DNA from: an archaeon 13_1_40CM_2_52_13 | GTDB taxonomy: Archaea > Thermoproteota > Bathyarchaeia > 40CM-2-53-6 | DNA: 32,121 nt | Direction of reading: 5' to 3' | NCBI GenBank assembly: GCA_001919285.1 | Contig: MNHO01000015.1 | Coordinates: forward strand, 1-32,121 | Part shown: positions 7,065 to 23,937 of the stretch, piece by piece | How positions within the stretch are numbered: the first letter of the stretch is position 1 | How the letters are laid out: each line of letters opens with the position of its first letter | The notes under the pieces: model-generated | Seen by the model: the letters and a program-made list of their open reading frames with translations, nothing else | What the model was told of the DNA's origin: nothing | Database searches by the model: none | Made by a program: the position numbers and the translations under genes

Positions 7065-7862
7065 GTGCCGGTCTTGGTCTCTCCTAAGCTAGATGAGGCT
7101 CGTTCGGAGCTAGTGAAGGCTCTCGAAGCTAGGATGATGGTGGCAATGGTTGCGAACTGTACTGTCAGCTATTCTGGCCGGACAGGCAGCGACATGGGGG
7201 AGGGTGAGCGGCTCGTTATTTTGAAGGGTGATGGTTGCGTGCTGGTCCACAGAGGCAGGGACTACCAGCCCGTTAACTGGCAGCCATCCGGGTGCGTGTT
7301 TCAGACCCGAATCGAGAGGGGGCGTCTGGTCGTAAAGGCTGTTCGTCCGAGTCCCTTGGAGACACTGACTATCGAAATGGACAGGATTGAGTTTCTGAGC
7401 GCGTTCCGTTTGAGGGACGATGCCCAGTTTATCCTCCACTCAAGCGAGGAGGAAATGCAGAAGGCCATACTCGCCGAACCAGATCTGATCGAGCAAGGGC
7501 TTCGAGTGATAGATTTCGAGAAGAAAGTTGCGCCCGGATTCGTCGACGTTTACGGAATCGACTCTCAGGGAAATACAGTGGTTATTGAGATCAAGAAGGG
7601 TCCGGCTGGAGCGGCTGCAGTTAAGCAACTTGTCGAATATCTGAAGTACCTTTCACCGACAGAGGGCAAGAAGCTTCGACCCATCATAGTCGCACCGTCT
7701 CTTGCCAAGGGCGTTCTACCGACGGTAGAGAAGATGAAGATCGAGTTCAAACCGCTGACCCTACAGAAGAGCCTGGAAACGTTGCAGAAACGCGTGAAGT
7801 CCGACCAGAAGGCATTGAAGGGATGGCTCGGAGAAATACCCGAAACGTCTAATCCTCAATAG
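7065..7862 (+). CDS. nucS: NucS/EndoMS mismatch-specific endonuclease
   Basis: NucS (DUF91) cuts DNA at mismatches and branched structures, replacing MutS/MutL repair in many archaea. The N-terminal beta domain shows GEGERLVILKGDGCVLVHRG and VNWQPSG. The RecB-like nuclease core has D161 in GFVDVYG, then E175-x-K177 in VVIEIKKG, followed by the AAVKQLVEYLKYL helix. The family C-terminal tail binds PCNA; here QKALKGWL at residues 248-255 fits a PIP box (Qxx[L]xx[aromatic][hydrophobic]). Start GTG gives 265 residues, a normal length. It is monocistronic, divergent from a methyltransferase and convergent with the membrane operon after 29 bp. Confidence 0.95.
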   Translation: MPVLVSPKLDEARSELVKALEARMMVAMVANCTVSYSGRTGSDMGEGERLVILKGDGCVLVHRGRDYQPVNWQPSGCVFQTRIERGRLVVKAVRPSPLETLTIEMDRIEFLSAFRLRDDAQFILHSSEEEMQKAILAEPDLIEQGLRVIDFEKKVAPGFVDVYGIDSQGNTVVIEIKKGPAGAAAVKQLVEYLKYLSPTEGKKLRPIIVAPSLAKGVLPTVEKMKIEFKPLTLQKSLETLQKRVKSDQKALKGWLGEIPETSNPQ

Positions 7863-7891: not shown

Positions 7892-9034
7892 TCAGTTTTC
7901 TTCGTACGGAAACTTCTTCTTCGCGGCATCAGTAGGCTTTGCATTGTCCCTGCTGCCTGTTGTGTCTGTGTTCTTGTCGTCCGCCTTGGACTCAAGCTTC
8001 TCGGGTCTCTCCTGAGTCGTCGCCGTATCCTCGGAGGCTGATGGTTTGACCGGACTTGCAACTATCGGAGAAGTGTCTACCCGGGGTTTGGTGACTTCAG
8101 AGCTGGGTCGGGAGACGGTGCTTGGGGCTGAGCTCCTAGGCGAGGTTGTTGGGCGAAGGGGTCGGGGAAGAATCTTGGGTTGTGCAGAAGTGGTCATTGG
8201 TCCAACTATGACACTAGGCGGGACGATTTTCGGCGCCGGTGCTGGGATGTAGGGCTGTTTCAGTCCGCCAGAATCAGAGACTGCTGGCGCCCTCCTTGGG
8301 GGAGATGATGGCGTAAGTATTCCCTTAAATTCCCCTATGAACTTGGGACTATCTTCCCAGCTCGAAGCGCTCTGGCCTGGTGGTGGAGTCTGCGTTGGTC
8401 TATCGAAGGTTCTCTGGGAAATGATCGTCGGGGGAGATGACTTTTCGACGCTTTTCTCAGTGATCATGATTGTTGGTTTCGCGAAAGCGGGTGAGCTTGT
8501 CGATGGTACAGGTTCAATTCTCGGTGGTGGGACTCCAGTCTCACGCCCGAAGGGGGTGTCCTCGCGGCTCATCGCAGTTGATCTCGCGCTCATTGGCGGG
8601 CCTGCTTCTAGCGGTGTTCGAAACGCTTTCTCCCATGATCCCGGCCTAGGTTCGCTAGGACTAGGAGTGACGGGCGTAGTGCTCGTGATGACGGGGCTTG
8701 GGTGAACCTTTTCTATTTTGAGTTCGGCCACCTGTGCCTCTAATACCAGGTTGCGTTTCATCAGATTCTCCAACATCTGTAATGCTCTTTCCAGGCGAAT
8801 GCCTGGTCGTAGGCCTCTCTGGAACTTGAAGGCGAGTGTTATGGCGAGCGTTGCGATTATCACCATAACTGCGATGTCGATGGTGCTGAAGGATAGCTGT
8901 GGGAATCTCTGGAGACTATTAGATAATTGTTCGGCGACAGAGGGGTTGTTGGCGTAGACTAAGAACAGCCAGTATGAGAGCCAGCCTACTAGCGCGGTCT
9001 CTATGGCTACGAGTTTGATAAGGAGTCTCCTCAA
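7892..9034 (-). CDS. Two-helix membrane protein with coiled coil and long Pro/Ser/Thr-rich tail
   Basis: I do not recognise this family. Two hydrophobic segments lie near residues 6-27 and 51-70, separated by a loop with NNPSVAEQL. Next come a basic stretch and a probable short coiled coil around 78-110 (ERALQMLENLMKRNLVLEAQVAELK). About 260 residues of Pro/Ser/Thr-rich low-complexity sequence follow, probably disordered, ending in a Lys/Glu/Asp-rich segment. The TTG start is preceded by a purine-rich ggagag about 10 nt upstream. It is the last gene of a three-gene minus-strand operon whose other members have the same layout. The antisense strand also shows long open frames, a by-product of the biased composition. 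Possible roles are a membrane scaffold or envelope organiser. Confidence 0.75.
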   Translation of the reverse strand: MRRLLIKLVAIETALVGWLSYWLFLVYANNPSVAEQLSNSLQRFPQLSFSTIDIAVMVIIATLAITLAFKFQRGLRPGIRLERALQMLENLMKRNLVLEAQVAELKIEKVHPSPVITSTTPVTPSPSEPRPGSWEKAFRTPLEAGPPMSARSTAMSREDTPFGRETGVPPPRIEPVPSTSSPAFAKPTIMITEKSVEKSSPPTIISQRTFDRPTQTPPPGQSASSWEDSPKFIGEFKGILTPSSPPRRAPAVSDSGGLKQPYIPAPAPKIVPPSVIVGPMTTSAQPKILPRPLRPTTSPRSSAPSTVSRPSSEVTKPRVDTSPIVASPVKPSASEDTATTQERPEKLESKADDKNTDTTGSRDNAKPTDAAKKKFPYEEN

Positions 9035-9127
9035 CCTATTCTTCTCTCCTTGTTCGGAGTAACAAGTAGCGCTCTGCTTCCCAAGAGCCTAAGACTTGGT
9101 GTAACTGGCTCGGATGGGTCAAAGTCC

Positions 9128-10495
9128 CTACTTTGCCTCTCCAACTCCTCGGTCTTTCCGCAGAGTCTTCAATATCGTGTCCAAGGCTGTGTCCCAGTCC
9201 ATCTCTCCACCGCCGCCAGCCGCTGGAGGGTTCTTCGATTCCGTCCCGGGCCTTGTCGAGGACAGATCACCGAATGATTCGGATTTCGCTGACGAGTCTG
9301 GTGACTCCTTGTCCGGAGTTTGCGTAGGGGGCTTCCAAGGCTGGGGCATTGGCATCGGTCCGCCCAGAGGACCCTGTGGTCGGGGTCCAGATTGGCCGGG
9401 TCCAGGTTGGGGTCCCATCCCGGGTGGGGGTCGAGGTGGACCGGCGCCGAACGGTCTTGGCGGTGCCATGGGTCGTTGCTCTCCTGGTCTTCCGGGTCCT
9501 TGTATGACGAATGAGCGGGGTCCTCCCTGTGTCGGTGGCATCGGGGGTCTCATGGGCATGGGGCCCGGTCGAGGAATTCCTTGCGGTGGGGGTGAGCCCG
9601 GTGTATTAGTGGATCCCGATTGTGGGGTCCATTTGGTCGGGAGCGGCGGGATAGCTCTTACTCCAGAAGTTTCGGAAGACGGCGGGATTCCTGGCCGGTC
9701 TGGAGGGGCCCATTTTGACGGGACTGCCGAGGACTGTGAACTTTGAGGTTGACTTGGGGCAGACGGGAACGGAGTGCCTTGTCTCGCTGATGTATCAAGA
9801 CCCGGCTTCTGAAAGACTGGACCAGGCTCTGACCTCCGGTCGTCCATCGTCGATGGAGAAGGATTCCAAGGTGGTGTTGGCCCGGGTCTAGGCGGCTGGT
9901 CGATTGGTGGGCGCATAGTCGAGCTGGGCTGATTCTGGGGCACAGGTTGGAACGGTGAGGAAGTTGGTTTAGCTGCTTCAGCTCTCAACGTCTGTAATAC
10001 CGCGGAGGCGCTCTTGCCCACCGCGTCCTGTTTCTGGGCCGGGAACACATCGGTAGAGGACTTGGCACTTGTTGACCAGGTCATGCTCGGGCTGGCTCTT
10101 GGACTGCTCGGGGTTGAGCTCTTTGGTAATGGTGGTACTGCGTAGACTGTGTGCTTTGACCCTGCGGAAGGCGGAGCGCCTGTGGGGAGGATCTGTCTGG
10201 AGGGCGAGGCTGTCGGCGTGCCTGTTGAGAGTAGTGATCCCGGTTTGAAGGATTTCGATTTCTGTATCTTTCCGACGAGGCCTTGGTCACCATGCCTTCT
10301 CTTGAGCAGCACGTACCCGAAACCGGATCCTCCGCCGAGCCCTATTGTGAGAACTATGAAGGGTGAATAGGGTCCGATGGACGTGTTGACGTAGTTCTGG
10401 AAGTAGACGTCGTTCAGATACTGGTTAACCAGCCAGAAGGTGAGGAATAGGTTGACGAGGAGAGAGATGGTGGTTCCGATTCGTATTCTGACCAC
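9128..10495 (-). CDS. Two-helix membrane protein with about 370-residue Pro/Gly/Ser-rich tail
   Basis: This is a second member of the membrane operon, family unknown. Transmembrane helices lie near residues 8-24 and 45-64, joined by a loop carrying WLVNQYLNDVYFQNY. After a basic stop-transfer (KRRHGDQ) comes a disordered tail rich in Pro, Gly, Ser and Gln, including PMPMRPPMPP-like runs. The last 25 residues (MDWDTALDTILKTLRKD region) form an amphipathic helix that could be a docking peptide. The loop matches that of the upstream gene almost position for position, so the two are paralogues. The GTG start shares one base with the upstream stop (TAGTG), suggesting translational coupling. The nearest plausible functional analogues are scaffold proteins, but this is only inference. 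Confidence 0.75.
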   Translation of the reverse strand: MVRIRIGTTISLLVNLFLTFWLVNQYLNDVYFQNYVNTSIGPYSPFIVLTIGLGGGSGFGYVLLKRRHGDQGLVGKIQKSKSFKPGSLLSTGTPTASPSRQILPTGAPPSAGSKHTVYAVPPLPKSSTPSSPRASPSMTWSTSAKSSTDVFPAQKQDAVGKSASAVLQTLRAEAAKPTSSPFQPVPQNQPSSTMRPPIDQPPRPGPTPPWNPSPSTMDDRRSEPGPVFQKPGLDTSARQGTPFPSAPSQPQSSQSSAVPSKWAPPDRPGIPPSSETSGVRAIPPLPTKWTPQSGSTNTPGSPPPQGIPRPGPMPMRPPMPPTQGGPRSFVIQGPGRPGEQRPMAPPRPFGAGPPRPPPGMGPQPGPGQSGPRPQGPLGGPMPMPQPWKPPTQTPDKESPDSSAKSESFGDLSSTRPGTESKNPPAAGGGGEMDWDTALDTILKTLRKDRGVGEAK

Positions 10496-10839
10496 TAGTA
10501 ATCATCCTCGGGTTTGCTGGTTTTCTTTGGAGGTTTCAGTACGGTCCGGATGGTTGAGATGAGCCGGGTGAAACCGTAGGCTGATGCGATCATTAGGACG
10601 ACCACTAGGAATACTGGGTTGAAGGATCCGAAGTATTGTTGTTCGTAGATGTTGTAGAAGTATTCCGTGACTAGCCAGAGGCCGAAGAATAGGATGATTC
10701 CGTATTCGAGGATGGACGTGAGGAGTGTTGTCTGGTATAGGTTGCTCCCCGCGGAGTCTTCTCCATGCCAGCCCAACAAAGTTTCGATGTTCCTTCTACT
10801 TCCACTCTTCTTGGGTTGGGCCTCCTCCTCAACCCCCAA
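10495..10839 (-). CDS. Short two-helix membrane protein, founder of the hairpin family
   Basis: This is a 114-residue protein with a polar N terminus (about 35 residues, containing NIETLLGWHGED), helices near 39-57 and 75-92, and a short charged tail (KPPKKTSKPEDD). The loop WLVTEYFYNIYEQQY (55-69) aligns with WLVNQYLNDVYFQNY in the next gene as WLVx[EQ]Yxxx[IV]YxQxY. Unlike its relatives it lacks the long Pro-rich tail. The TTG start lies about 14 nt downstream of a predicted transcription start. It is the first gene of the operon and is divergent from radA across a 195-bp region. No known domain was recognised. Confidence 0.8.
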   Translation of the reverse strand: MGVEEEAQPKKSGSRRNIETLLGWHGEDSAGSNLYQTTLLTSILEYGIILFFGLWLVTEYFYNIYEQQYFGSFNPVFLVVVLMIASAYGFTRLISTIRTVLKPPKKTSKPEDDY

Positions 10840-11034: not shown

Positions 11035-12027
11035 ATGGTGACTCAAGAAACCGCCCGGAAATACGAAGTTGTAGAAGACCTCCCGGGCGTAGGTCCATCA
11101 ACTGCTGACAAGCTGAAAGAGCTCGGCTTCCACACAGTCGAGAGCTTAGCTACCGCCACCGTCCGAGAACTCGTCCCTGCTGGGATCGGCGAGAAACAGG
11201 CCGCCAAGATCATCGGTGTGGCCCGAGACAGCATCTCATTATCGTTCATCAGAGCTGACGAGCTGATGAGGATGAAGGCCAACGTTCTACGGCTCACAAC
11301 CGGCAGCAAATCCTTCGACGAACTGATCGGCGGCGGACTAGAGACCCAGACGATCACGGAAGTATACGGCGAGTATGGAGTCGGCAAATCTATCCTCTGC
11401 CATCAACTAGCGGTCAACGTTCAGCTTCCAGTAGACAAGGGCGGTCTAGATGGTGGCGCCTTGTATCTGGACACGGAACAGACTTTTCGTCCAGAGTGGA
11501 TCGTCCGGATGGCAAAGTCCGCAGGTCTGGAGGCAACAGATGTTGCACAGCGAATAATCTACTCAGAGGCCTACAATTCGGATCACCAGGTCCTTCTCTT
11601 GGAGAAGGCGGATCAGATAATCAAAAACAATAACATACGAGTGATAATCATCGACTCGCTAACGTCTCATTTCAGAAGCGAGTACTTGGGAAGAGAGATG
11701 CTGGCAGAACGACAGCAACGGTTGAACAATCATATGCACAGACTGATACGGCTCGCGAGGGGATTCAACGCCGTGGCGGTTGTGACTAACCAGGTTATGT
11801 CGAAGCCTGACCAGTTTTTCGCCAATTCGGTTGACGCTGTTGGCGGTCACATAGTGGCCCACACAAGCCACACTCGGGTCTTTCTACGCCGCGCTGCCAG
11901 TGGTCCAATTAGGATTGCGCGTCTCGTCTCCAGCCCCTACCTTCCCGAGGGTGAAAGAATATTCAAGGTCACCGAGACAGGCATACTCGACGTGTCGGAG
12001 GAGGACGAGGTCAAGCGTCGTCGGTAA
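11035..12027 (+). CDS. radA: DNA repair and recombination protein RadA
   Basis: RadA is the archaeal RecA/Rad51 recombinase that forms ATP-dependent filaments on single-stranded DNA. The N-terminal helix-hairpin-helix domain holds DLPGVGPSTADKLKELGF. The ATPase core has Walker A GEYGVGKS at residues 112-119, YLDTEQTFRPEWI, Walker B RVIIIDSLTSHFRSEYLGR, and the DNA-binding L2 region from VVTNQVMSKPDQFF. The C terminus shows LPEGERIFKVTETGILD and then about 12 extra charged residues. The 330-residue length is typical and the ATG start sits on a good promoter. The following gene begins immediately after the stop, in a different frame. Confidence 0.97.
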   Translation: MVTQETARKYEVVEDLPGVGPSTADKLKELGFHTVESLATATVRELVPAGIGEKQAAKIIGVARDSISLSFIRADELMRMKANVLRLTTGSKSFDELIGGGLETQTITEVYGEYGVGKSILCHQLAVNVQLPVDKGGLDGGALYLDTEQTFRPEWIVRMAKSAGLEATDVAQRIIYSEAYNSDHQVLLLEKADQIIKNNNIRVIIIDSLTSHFRSEYLGREMLAERQQRLNNHMHRLIRLARGFNAVAVVTNQVMSKPDQFFANSVDAVGGHIVAHTSHTRVFLRRAASGPIRIARLVSSPYLPEGERIFKVTETGILDVSEEDEVKRRR

Positions 12028-12029
12028 AA

Positions 12030-12482
12030 TCAGACAACACAATTCCCGCAGAATCAGTCAACCGGTTCTTCCAGAATGTAGAAGCGCGAGCATGGACGGA
12101 TGCGGAGAAGGAGCTTGATAGTATCCGACAGAAAGCGGAGAACGCTGCTTGGTACAAGGGATACGTCAAAGCTCTAGAGGGCTTGCTATTGACGTACCGG
12201 ACCAACGATGACAAGTACATCTACCTGCCCAAAGTGCTGGGAAACCGCGGCGAGGAATCGATCAACCAGATTCGGAAAGAGTTCGGAGAGTTTGCAGCTA
12301 ACGAGATTCACGGAGAATACGACCGAGGATATTTCAAAGCGTTAGAAGATTACGTCACGCTTCTGTCCTCGATGAAGAGCCCACAACAGGCTAGCGACGC
12401 GATTCCCCCAGCGACCGTGGAGAAGAAGGAACCTGCTAAGAAGGATGCGGGTCTAGAACAGTATACAGTAGAATCGTCGTAA
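12030..12482 (+). CDS. Conserved-looking helical protein with internal repeat; start codon unclear
   Basis: This acidic helical protein, family not recognised, contains two similar units: AAWYKGYVKALEGLLLTYRT and, about 75 residues later, GEYDRGYFKALEDYVTLLSS. The first unit lies upstream of TTG 12183, the first ATG/GTG/TTG in this frame, so the gene must begin earlier. The frame is open back to the stop at 11952-11954, inside radA. Between there and 12183 it contains only non-canonical candidates, such as ATT at 12042. I place the beginning just after the radA stop. Explanations are an unusual start, a minus-one shift from radA, or a sequence error. The 3' end overlaps the convergent membrane gene by 47 bp. 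The tail after about residue 110 is Lys/Pro/Ala-rich. Confidence 0.6.
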   Translation, partial: SDNTIPAESVNRFFQNVEARAWTDAEKELDSIRQKAENAAWYKGYVKALEGLLLTYRTNDDKYIYLPKVLGNRGEESINQIRKEFGEFAANEIHGEYDRGYFKALEDYVTLLSSMKSPQQASDAIPPATVEKKEPAKKDAGLEQYTVESS

Positions 12483-12861
12483 AGATCATCCAGATAATGT
12501 AGGATCCCATTCCAATAGTCAGGTGCTTATTTGGACCCTTCAATACCTCAGGTCCGTATCCGAGAAGGTTCTTCACTAGAAAGACTGAGACGGAATAGAC
12601 TCCTATTCCCACGGTAATCATGCTCAGCGTGCCGAGTCCTACTCCCAACGAGCCGAATCCCGCAAGGTTGTAGATGACACCGGCTAAGACACCAAAGCCG
12701 AGCCGCAGCCAGTAGACGAGCGAGGCTGGGGGCAGACGGCCGATGTGGACTTCCTTGGCAGTCTGAACAGCTAGGTTCGACCCCGCGCTCGACAAGGCTC
12801 GAAAGAGGCCGGCTTCAATCGTGCTGATAACGTTTTGCCGGAAAAAACGTGCGAAGTTCAC
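12436..12861 (-). CDS. Three-helix membrane protein, possibly EMC6-like
   Basis: This 141-residue protein has an amphipathic N terminus of about 45 residues and then three hydrophobic helices (about 47-70, 74-97 and 117-136). The pattern RLGFGVLAGVIYNLAG, a second helix ending in a polar loop, and a final helix GSYIIWMIFTTILLYTVL resembles the three-helix EMC6/TMEM93 layout. Sequence identity by eye is too weak to name it. The GTG start lies 42 bp from the divergent CBS gene. The last 47 bp overlap the end of the convergent radA-downstream gene. Confidence 0.7.
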   Translation of the reverse strand: MNFARFFRQNVISTIEAGLFRALSSAGSNLAVQTAKEVHIGRLPPASLVYWLRLGFGVLAGVIYNLAGFGSLGVGLGTLSMITVGIGVYSVSVFLVKNLLGYGPEVLKGPNKHLTIGMGSYIIWMIFTTILLYTVLDPHPS

Positions 12862-20535: not shown

Positions 20536-23500
20536 TCATATCTTTCGGTCGAGTGGTATCTCAACTGTGAAGGTTGTTCCCTCCCCAACTTTGCTTGAGA
20601 CTTTGATGTCGCCGTGGTGAGATTCGATCAACAGCTTGGCCACGGCCAGTCCCAGTCCCACGCCTTTCTCTCTGGTAGTGAAGAGCGGGTTGAAGATCTT
20701 GGCTTTGATGTCCTCCGGGATTCCCTTCCCAGTGTCTTGGAAGCTGATCGCGGCTAACTCTTTATTCTTCCACGCGTTTATTCTTAGCTGACCCCCATCT
20801 GGCATTGCTTGTAGGGCATTCGCGATTATGTTGGTGAAGGCTCTGCGGAGCAAGTTTGGATCGACGGTCAGTTTGGGAAAGCCCGGCTCAAAGGAGGTGA
20901 AGACTTCTACAGTTTTGGGTATTGAGATCGAGGATCGTGCGTCGTCGATGAGGCCCTGAAGGTCGTATTCGACAAAAGAAGGCTTCGGTTGTCTGGCGTA
21001 GTCTTGGAGGTCGGATACGATCTTGTTCATGAAGTCGGCTTGCTCTCGAATAGTTTCCAGAGTTTTCTCGATACGCAAGTTCTGCGAGGCTCCTCCAGAT
21101 TTCATGCTCTCCATCGCTAGATGGACAGTGTTGATTATCGTCTGGAGTGGATTGCGGAGGTCGTGGCCGACCATTCCTGCCGTCTCACCAATGGCCGCCA
21201 TGCGAGTTGAGTTCCTCAGCATTCTGGTTCTCTCCTCAACCACCTCTTCCAATTGTTCCGTGTGAGCCTTGAGCCTCTCCTCGGCTTGCTTTATCCGGTC
21301 GATGTCAACGAAGGCTACCACAGCTCCGTCGATCTTGTTGTCTGCCGTCCTGTAAGGCCGTATCCAGATAGAATACCAGCGACCGTTGCTGTCTTTGACC
21401 TCTATTTCCTTGGGGGCAACGCTGTCTATTACATCGGTAATCAGAGAGCCCACATCCGGAGTCTTCGGGTTCAGATTGATGTCGGTAATGGAACGTCCGA
21501 CGTCGGACGCGAGCAAATTGAACATCTTCTCTGCATGGGGGGTGAAACGACGTATCCGAAGATCGTTGCCCAGCATGATGATCGGCAGGTTCGCGCTAAC
21601 CAGGAGGTTTGTTATGTCATCATTAACCTGGGTGAGTTCGACGTTCCGGTTTTGTAATTCTTCGTTAACTGTGGTCAGTTCTTCGTTTGTGGACTGAAGC
21701 TCTTCTTTGGCCGTCTCCAACTCCTCATTGGTGCTTTGAAGTTCCTCATTGCTCGACTGTATTTCCTCATTGGCGGCCCTCAATTCTTCTATGGCCGATT
21801 CGTTATCCTGTATGATCGACTGCAGATACTCCTTGTTTGCAGAAAGCTCCTGTTCGAGATGTAGGAACTTGCGATTCTCAGCCATCTGATCCCTAGCATG
21901 CTTCGCGCCCCGGGTTCCGCCCGTTGTCGGACCAGGGATTGGCCTTGGCAATGCTTCTTCGAACGATATCAGAAAGCATGGCAGGTTTGCCGAAGTCTTC
22001 AGCGGGGTTACCTCTAGGTTGACGTCGACATATTTGCCATCAGATTTGATGGAAATCTCTTTCTTCCTAACAGTGTCGCCACTAGTCTTGGCCCTATCGA
22101 TTGCTGCCCGCAGGTTCGTCATCAGGCCTTCCCGGGCCATTTTCAGAACGTTGAGGCTGGCTTTCCCAGGCGCGGGCTCGAGGAAGAGACCCGTGCGTCC
22201 GCGAAACTGGATAATCTCCAACTCACTGTTCACGATGACGGTGGCAGGCGAGTATTTGGTTAACATGATCCGGTCTGCTTCCTTGAAGATGGCCTGTTCT
22301 GGGACTAGACCTTCAATGCGCCGGGCCTCTGATCTGTCAACATGCCCAAGCTCAATCCCGTATTTCATCGAGAAGTCGAGTTGAGTACGCGGAACCATAG
22401 GTTTCTTGGAATAGATCTTGAGCCGTTTGTTCGCTACATTGAAGATGTTGTCGAATTCCCCTATGGTCTCAAAGTCTCCGAGGACAAGGAAGCCGGTAGG
22501 TTTGAGTGCGTAGTGGAATATTGGAAGCAGTTTCTTCTGCAGAGGCGGCCCGAGGTAGATTAGCAGGTTTCTACAGACGATGAGATCAAGCTTCGAGAAT
22601 GGGGGGTCAGCAGTCACGTTTTGCTTGGCAAAGATGCACATCTTCCGGATTGTCTTGTTTATCTGGTAGGAGCCGTTTGTCTTGACGAAGAAGCGTCGTA
22701 GTCGTTCTCCAGAGACGTAGGGGGATGCGCTGTACACGCCTTGCCGTGCTTTTTCTAACACGTTCTCGTTCACGTCGGTGGCGAAGATCTGGATTGGCGG
22801 CTTAACGCGGGCATGGTCGAGGTACTCGAGTAGACTTATGGCTACTGAATAGACCTCTTCACCAGTCGAGCAGCCGGGGATCCATATCCTGATGGGGTCT
22901 TCAGCGGGCCTGTTTTTCAAAATGTTGGGAAATATCTCGGTTTTCAAAGCCTCGAGGGTAGCAGGCTCACGAAAGAAAGCGGTAACGCTGATCAGAATAT
23001 CTTGGAAGAGAGAGTTCAGCTCGCCAGAGCCTGTCTGCAAATACTTCAGATAATTCTCCATACTACTGATCTTCAGAATGAGCATCCGTCTCATGATTCG
23101 TCTCTTGATTGTGGCGTGTTTGTAGTCGGTGAAATCAACCCCCTTGCCCTTTCGCAAGAGGCTGAAGATCTTTTCCAGGTCGCTGTGAGGCAACAGCTCT
23201 TCGGCTTTTTCCGTCTCCAAGTACGGAACGTAGGGATGCTCACTAATCTTGGTGAGTTCCTGGGCTATCTCCTTGGGGGCGAGTATTAAGTCGACGAAGC
23301 CCGCGGCGACGGCACTACGAGGTAAATCGTAATACTTAGCTGATTTCTCGTCTTGAGCAATCGTGATTCCACCTTCCGCCTTTATGGCCTTCAGTCCCTG
23401 AACACCATCCATTGAGGTCCCGGAGAGGATCACCGCGACCGCTCGGCCCTTCTGGTCTAGGGAGAGGGATTGTAAGAAGTGGTCAATGGGCATGTGCTTG

Positions 23501-23937
23501 CGGTCAACGTCCACGCGCGGGGTAAGATAGAGCGCTCCCTTGGAAATGGTCATGCTCGTGTTCGGCGGGATCACGTAGACATTTCTCGGCTTCACCTGCA
23601 TGCCATCAGTGACCTCGGCTACCGGTAGTTTGGTTGTCTTGGAGAGAAGTTCAGCCAACAGACTCTTGTAAGTGGGGTCTAAGTGTTGTATCAGGACCAG
23701 CGCCATATTGATGTCTGGCGGGAGCTCCCGAAGGAGTTGAGTGAAGGCTTCGAGCCCACCCGCAGAGGCACCAATGCCCACGACTGGGAAGGACTCATCC
23801 ACAGACGCGTCGCAGTCAATAGCCTTCGCCCTCCGAGGATGTGCCGACTGTATTGGCCTGAACCGGCGTCTCTGCCCACTGGCAGCACTCTTCGTCTTGC
23901 TAATTGATCCTTTACGGTTGACGAGTTCTTGAGCCAT
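20536..23937 (-). CDS. CheB-CheR-PAS-histidine kinase fusion
   Basis: This is a single 1133-residue signalling protein. A CheB methylesterase domain (about 50-235) has GIGASAGG, LIQHLDP and LSGTSMDG, which supply the Ser-His-Asp triad. CheR N-terminal and SAM-binding domains (about 255-505) have IKRRIMRRM and IWIPGCSTGEEVYSVA. A PAS-like region (about 560-660) comes next. An exceptionally regular coiled coil (about 690-765), built from ELQSTNEELxxxxEELQ units, precedes a second PAS (about 770-880). HisKA has the phosphorylatable H925 in GHDLRNPLQ, and HATPase has DTGKGIPED and GLGLAVAKLL. There is no transmembrane segment, so it is cytoplasmic. Chemotaxis genes are otherwise absent in the window. 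Such fusions are common in bacteria, so lateral acquisition is possible. Confidence 0.95.
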   Translation of the reverse strand: MAQELVNRKGSISKTKSAASGQRRRFRPIQSAHPRRAKAIDCDASVDESFPVVGIGASAGGLEAFTQLLRELPPDINMALVLIQHLDPTYKSLLAELLSKTTKLPVAEVTDGMQVKPRNVYVIPPNTSMTISKGALYLTPRVDVDRKHMPIDHFLQSLSLDQKGRAVAVILSGTSMDGVQGLKAIKAEGGITIAQDEKSAKYYDLPRSAVAAGFVDLILAPKEIAQELTKISEHPYVPYLETEKAEELLPHSDLEKIFSLLRKGKGVDFTDYKHATIKRRIMRRMLILKISSMENYLKYLQTGSGELNSLFQDILISVTAFFREPATLEALKTEIFPNILKNRPAEDPIRIWIPGCSTGEEVYSVAISLLEYLDHARVKPPIQIFATDVNENVLEKARQGVYSASPYVSGERLRRFFVKTNGSYQINKTIRKMCIFAKQNVTADPPFSKLDLIVCRNLLIYLGPPLQKKLLPIFHYALKPTGFLVLGDFETIGEFDNIFNVANKRLKIYSKKPMVPRTQLDFSMKYGIELGHVDRSEARRIEGLVPEQAIFKEADRIMLTKYSPATVIVNSELEIIQFRGRTGLFLEPAPGKASLNVLKMAREGLMTNLRAAIDRAKTSGDTVRKKEISIKSDGKYVDVNLEVTPLKTSANLPCFLISFEEALPRPIPGPTTGGTRGAKHARDQMAENRKFLHLEQELSANKEYLQSIIQDNESAIEELRAANEEIQSSNEELQSTNEELETAKEELQSTNEELTTVNEELQNRNVELTQVNDDITNLLVSANLPIIMLGNDLRIRRFTPHAEKMFNLLASDVGRSITDINLNPKTPDVGSLITDVIDSVAPKEIEVKDSNGRWYSIWIRPYRTADNKIDGAVVAFVDIDRIKQAEERLKAHTEQLEEVVEERTRMLRNSTRMAAIGETAGMVGHDLRNPLQTIINTVHLAMESMKSGGASQNLRIEKTLETIREQADFMNKIVSDLQDYARQPKPSFVEYDLQGLIDDARSSISIPKTVEVFTSFEPGFPKLTVDPNLLRRAFTNIIANALQAMPDGGQLRINAWKNKELAAISFQDTGKGIPEDIKAKIFNPLFTTREKGVGLGLAVAKLLIESHHGDIKVSSKVGEGTTFTVEIPLDRKI

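Follow-up and report, generated by a model that had tools for sequence, protein, structure and literature searches.

What are the three adjacent minus-strand genes that lie between nucS and radA in the 32,121-nt stretch of bathyarchaeal DNA analysed here (the window), and do they form a system? A first-pass annotation of this DNA had described them as hairpin membrane proteins, two of which carry long disordered tails, and all three open reading frames are indeed present (HP1, HP2 and HP3; Table 1). The loop signature that it had reported for the first two is exact, as WLVTEYFYNIYEQQY (residues 55–69 of HP1) aligns without gaps to WLVNQYLNDVYFQNY (residues 21–35 of HP2). The TAGTG overlap of HP1 and HP2 is likewise present in the window, and all 18 genomes read showed an overlap of the two genes, of either 1 or 4 nt. 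Searches with the HP1 sequence returned orthologues from 18 other genomes, all belonging to the same family of soil Bathyarchaeia, and the HP1-HP2-HP3 operon is kept in 18 genomes of this family in addition to the window, with HP3 next in line in every genome whose contig extends far enough. A conserved cluster across TACK archaea had been named as support for a system; the three-gene cluster is kept, but it is limited to this one bathyarchaeal family. In a codon comparison with the nearest relative (L033), dN/dS was 0–0.07 for HP1, for the hairpins of HP2 and HP3 and for the C-terminal helix of HP2, all of which are thus under strong purifying selection. Because HP1 alone retrieves HP2 orthologues from other genomes (E down to 3e-7) and the three-gene cluster is conserved, the likeness between HP1 and HP2 is not due to chance.

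The window genome is a draft (52% complete), and those of its near relatives that bear names are MAGs of soil Bathyarchaeota (BA_2, BA_7 and others). We take the BA_ MAGs to be tied to the grassland soil site of the two studies cited next. Bathyarchaeota have been described in grassland soils (PMC5103831, PMC6784897), and the soil habitat of the family rests on these two reports together with the MAG names.

Table 1. Features of the hairpin operon and its flanking genes, in positions of the window
Feature	Position	Strand	Remarks
HP1	10495..10839	-	114-aa hairpin protein; short acidic C-terminus, EDDY invariant
HP1 hairpin module	10540..10731	-	E45, W55, Y60, N63, Y69; profiles A2/A3
HP2	9128..10495	-	455 aa; hairpin and ~370-residue disordered Pro/Gly/Ser tail; 1-nt overlap with HP1
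HP2 hairpin module	10289..10489	-	Profile A3, E=1.7e-22
HP2 tail motif KHTVYAVPPLPK	10121..10156	-	KHxxYAVPP core; conserved across three genera
HP2 C-terminal helix EMDWDTALDTILKTLRKDR	9149..9205	-	Nearly invariant; zero amino-acid changes versus L033
HP3	7892..9034	-	380 aa; likely divergent hairpin, predicted coiled coil, disordered tail
HP3 likely hairpin module	8816..9031	-	E12, W22, Y27, N29 N30; outer end divergent
HP3 amphipathic long helix, predicted coiled coil GIRLERALQMLENLMKRNLVLEAQVAEL	8708..8800	-	Nearly invariant; AF2 helix 79-109, low confidence
HP3 tail motif GSWEKAFRTPLEAGPP	8594..8641	-	Conserved island
HP3 second tail motif WEDSPKFIGEFKG	8321..8359	-	WEDSP invariant in 11 genomes
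radA	11035..12027	+	Divergent neighbour, landmark outside the module
nucS	7065..7862	+	Convergent neighbour; Pfam NucS_N/NucS_C

The surroundings of the operon suggest how it came to lie where it does. In the sister families f2 and f5, NucS immediately precedes RadA in the same orientation, and the two genes that come next are those also seen in the window. In the window, the three hairpin genes are encoded on the opposite strand and separate NucS from RadA. Since NucS and RadA are adjacent in the sister families and the module was not found outside its own family (see below), the best reading of the operon is an insertion between these two genes that is specific to this lineage. The synteny with radA singled out by the first-pass annotation is borne out as far as position goes, with radA divergent to the operon in 17 of 18 genomes, but the operon lies between two genes that adjoin in the sister families and is not next to radA in one genome (L035), and a functional link to radA was rejected on these grounds. 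Further along the window, a small ‘YDRGYF’ protein (12183–12482, +) and a membrane protein (12436–12861, −) are encoded by overlapping convergent genes without a Pfam or NCBIfam match, and their homologues occur in the same order after radA in the sister families. The window also encodes a 1,133-aa fusion of CheB methylesterase, CheR methyltransferase, PAS, HisKA and HATPase domains (20536–23937, −), here in an archaeal genome. In another member of the family (G019), the radA match falls into two pieces ~1.2 kb apart within one 779-aa open frame (C57:606–2816), suggesting an intein.

The hairpin motif of HP1 and HP2 can be written as [EQ]-x9-W[LIV]xxEYxNNxYxQx[YW][VL], spanning two membrane helices, and both proteins contain all the elements by which the new family was delimited (a helix 1 with E or Q, W[LIV]xxEYxNNxYxQxY and a helix 2). 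Counting from the central Tyr, which is conserved in 94% of 131 sequences, the consensus has E/Q at −15, W at −5, E at −1, N at +2 and +3, Y/F at +5, Q at +7 and Y/W at +9. Conservation amounts to 78% for N, 73% for the E/Q of helix 1, 68% for W and 58–80% along YxQx[YW]; helix 2 and its position are free to vary. Net charge averages +1.4 ahead of helix 1 and +2.1 past helix 2, against −0.4 for the loop between them. From this positive-inside pattern we infer that both ends of the hairpin are cytoplasmic and that the conserved EYxNNxYxQxY stretch makes up the outward-facing end of helix 1. AF2 models of HP1 and of HP3 residues 1–145 were weak (mean pLDDT 60 and 58) and were used for helix boundaries only; the HP1 model, of low overall confidence, places helices at residues 31–65 and 75–101.

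HP3 is likely, at moderate strength, a divergent member of the same family. Its membership is likely rather than certain because it stayed below threshold with profile A3, which contains no HP3 (E 0.03–1.9), and because a direct profile comparison of HP3 with HP1 gave no link; the tie appears only against the family profile (profile–profile comparison, E 7e-6, probability 84%). When the HP3 profile was run against 398 genomes, the only match apart from HP3 was a free hairpin (G014:C7, E=1.1e-4). Of 4,894 ORFs, 51 contain the helix-1 motif, every one of these 51 within the hairpin set; 37 belong to the family as defined by A3, and the other 14 only to the set defined with HP3 included. Matches of profile A5 to HP3 were not taken as evidence, since A5 was built with HP3 in it.

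Globally, the three genes belong to a much larger set. The weak secondary matches of the HP1 search were further hairpin proteins, and the hairpin-core profiles A2 and A3 detected many copies per genome in 20 of the family's 21 genomes. In a full census, there were 22 hairpins in G014, 18 in G005, 14 in G018 and 10 in G020, and the window genome, though incomplete, had 11. The duplicated hairpin of the first-pass annotation was thus correct in that HP1 and HP2 are homologous but incomplete, as HP3 is likely a copy too and about 10–22 hairpins per genome, transporter fusions included, occur in these 20 genomes. As a separate observation, five genomes each have both FtsZ/tubulin-family and Snf7-domain (ESCRT-III-like) genes (L263 and L264, at G014:C72:40566–41024 and C41:85415–85870, and equivalents). 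Hairpins were missing from a single family member, G019; with a genome 67% complete and a radA only 74–75% identical, it may have branched off early. Against 236 other genomes of the class, A3 gave one weak match (E 1.4e-4) with in-frame stops, and against a 398-genome sample of the phylum, which overlaps the class sample, there was no further match outside the family. Across the ~600 other genomes of class and phylum in these overlapping samples, the hairpin does not credibly occur outside one bathyarchaeal family. That it is an undescribed module of this soil family, with many duplicates per genome, is well supported.

HP1 and HP2 are paralogues of one two-helix hairpin that also occurs joined to permeases of the RND/MMPL, MFS and FtsX types, to zinc ribbons and to disordered tails. 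Free hairpin proteins measure about 85–280 aa. In this lineage, the same hairpin stands at one end of proteins from three known transporter families: RND/MMPL (PF03176), where it is C-terminal on one family and N-terminal on another, MFS exporters of the 14-helix drug-exporter type (PF07690), where it is C-terminal, and FtsX/MacB-type permeases (PF02687), where it is N-terminal. These attachments were recovered with profiles that had not been trained on them, A2 (no transporter inside) retrieving the MMPL proteins at E of about 2e-8 to 1e-7 and A3 (no MFS or FtsX inside) the MFS proteins at 1e-10 to 2e-12 and the FtsX permeases at 1e-8 to 3e-9. Whereas the transporter domains are familiar, the hairpin is an addition missing from homologues outside the lineage: out-of-family homologues align up to the hairpin boundary, at residue 993 of 1154 for MMPL and at residue 480 or 591 of 666 for MFS. 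In hairpin trees, which are coarse (60 columns), the N-terminal hairpins of MMPL and FtsX proteins group together in a single clade (support 0.99), and those of MFS proteins fall within the free hairpins; such mixing of transporter and free hairpins is expected for a shuffled module.

Other copies are joined to a C-terminal zinc ribbon and reside in a conserved acyl-CoA dehydrogenase-FixCX-ETF-TatAC neighbourhood. This cluster with its zinc-ribbon hairpin was observed at L131, L132, L133 and L127 (for example, L131:7936–8310, +), and in G005 and G014 it lies ~21 kb from the HP1-3 operon. We also noted membrane proteins of ~710 aa with an N-terminal hairpin and no Pfam match (L211:2238–4370, −; L212:3698–5812, +; L213:3553–5694, +) and, in three genomes, a ParA/MinD-type ATPase gene followed by a gene for a four-helix protein with a C-terminal hairpin (L220, L222 and L225; for example, L222:4255–5758, −). 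The paralogues lie in varied genomic surroundings (surface-sugar genes, ETF/FixCX, DnaKJ and ParA), which therefore indicate no single pathway.

The disordered tails of HP2 and HP3 noted at first pass do contain conserved motifs, namely KHxxYAVPP, the C-terminal helix and WEDSP. With a dN/dS of 0.15–0.20 versus the nearest relative, the tails are under weaker purifying selection than the hairpins; since it acts on them too, they are genuine coding sequence. An alignment of HP2 orthologues, 13 in number and drawn from three genera, shows conserved islands at the hairpin, at KHxxYAVPP and at the final helix (MDWDTALDTILKTLRKDR); both HP2 motifs, KHxxYAVPP and the C-terminal helix, were found in HP2 orthologues only among 4,894 ORFs. 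The islands shared by 11 HP3 orthologues are the coiled coil (GLRPGIRLERALQMLENLMKRNLVLEAQVAEL), SWEKAFRTPLEAG and WEDSP. Furthermore, a C-terminal MPxLKR motif recurs in several groups of free hairpins. We considered the VPPLPK of HP2 as a candidate ESCRT-type (MIM2-like) binding motif and rejected it, as its LPK part is lost in L049.

The first-pass annotation had recognised no known family, and comparison with Pfam, NCBIfam, PHROGs and PDB sequences agrees: the hairpin core gave no shared significant match, only scattered single-member matches (best E 0.001) and chance GPCR-fusion matches (E 0.1 or weaker). The two-helix magnetosome membrane protein MamI (NF040963) resembles the hairpin proteins in size and layout, but HP1 scored at chance level against it (13.3 bits versus a cut-off of 80). 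Similarly, the second helix and coiled coil of HP3 weakly matched the TadB/TadC N-terminal domain (PF19360; E 0.01–0.2), at 11.9 bits versus a gathering score of 27 and with no T2SSF-type or TadB/C domain following. A viral origin was set aside, the HP1 profile having no relative in viral contigs, and the long tails and transporter fusions rule against a toxin or holin. A literature search returned no description of the module. Lineage-specific expansion of paralogues is ordinary, but the hairpin module and its distribution are not, and we know of no described case of one hairpin common to RND, MFS and FtsX transporters and to free scaffold-like proteins.

What could such a module do? The reading we lean towards, tentatively, is that the hairpin is a lineage-specific docking module and that HP1-3 are a conserved core which would recruit cytosolic partners through the motifs of its tails. 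The scaffold proposed at first pass is thus still plausible. The buried polar residue of helix 1 and the aromatic outer stretch would provide a packing surface for other hairpins or for a common membrane partner. Coming from one operon, HP1, HP2 and HP3 would be the constant part of the assembly, holding long cytoplasmic tails from which the C-terminal helix and KHxxYAVPP of HP2 and the WE motifs of HP3 might recruit partners; transporters and small proteins with the same hairpin could then dock into the same membrane patch. Bacterial polar and membrane scaffolds such as PopZ and DivIVA have disordered Pro-rich regions. The proposed working of HP1-3 is alike, with a membrane platform and disordered recruiting segments, but we saw no sequence relation between these scaffolds and HP1-3, and none of them has this hairpin.

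The conservation pattern also bears on an outer-face tether, in which the aromatic stretch would bind an S-layer protein, a surface glycan or a particular lipid headgroup and so fix transporters and tail proteins to the envelope with no need for hairpin–hairpin contact. Conservation is strongest at the outer end of helix 1, and several free hairpins are encoded among glycosyltransferase and nucleotide-sugar dehydrogenase genes, as such a tether would predict; we nevertheless consider it unlikely, because the polar E/Q of helix 1 equals much of the loop in its conservation, which points to contacts within the membrane, and because other copies are encoded at a distance from envelope genes, by ETF/FixCX or DnaKJ. 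The diversity of attached partners and the freedom of helix 2 would fit a convenient two-helix anchor that was spread by duplication and fusion and has no specific binding role. Yet transporters with 12–14 helices gained the hairpin though they need no extra anchor, the constraint on the motif far exceeds hydrophobicity, and ~600 other genomes, rich in hydrophobic hairpins, yielded one weak match in a frame with stops, all of which makes a generic anchor fairly improbable.

Fusion to three unrelated transporter superfamilies, at either end, raises the question of whether the hairpin packs on transporter domains as an accessory subunit that stabilises or regulates them, with free hairpins including HP1-3 acting in trans. 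This would require three folds with different surfaces to use the same accessory; moreover, the fused hairpin is missing from at least one close f1 MMPL paralogue, whose alignment stops at residue 990, and the HP operon has no transporter alongside, so we regard this possibility as quite improbable. A division or chromosome-positioning scaffold at the membrane is very improbable, for although HP1-3 adjoin radA and a 4-TM hairpin gene stands in tandem with a ParA/MinD-type ATPase gene in three genomes, the radA position is that of an operon between NucS and RadA, with radA elsewhere in one genome, FtsZ and a Snf7-domain protein are present anyway, and the hairpins are not consistently near FtsZ, a link to division genes being rejected for this reason.

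A wider version of the docking reading, which we regard as rather doubtful, is a general membrane docking code, in which the hairpin would have been copied onto transporters and adaptors that the HP1-3 core, its disordered tails recruiting from the cytosol, would gather into one common membrane assembly. If true, this code would be an archaeal counterpart, in principle though not by descent, of tags that sort or scaffold proteins elsewhere. Annotation usually misses small membrane modules, and this one, which belongs to no recognised family, reaches at least 10–20 copies per genome in soil archaea that are themselves abundant. Its profile is ready to annotate hundreds of hypothetical proteins, and the tail motifs, such as the HP2 C-terminal helix and MPxLKR, are concrete baits for partners. 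Finally, its grafting onto three unrelated transporter superfamilies offers a testable case of membrane proteins gaining common docking parts.
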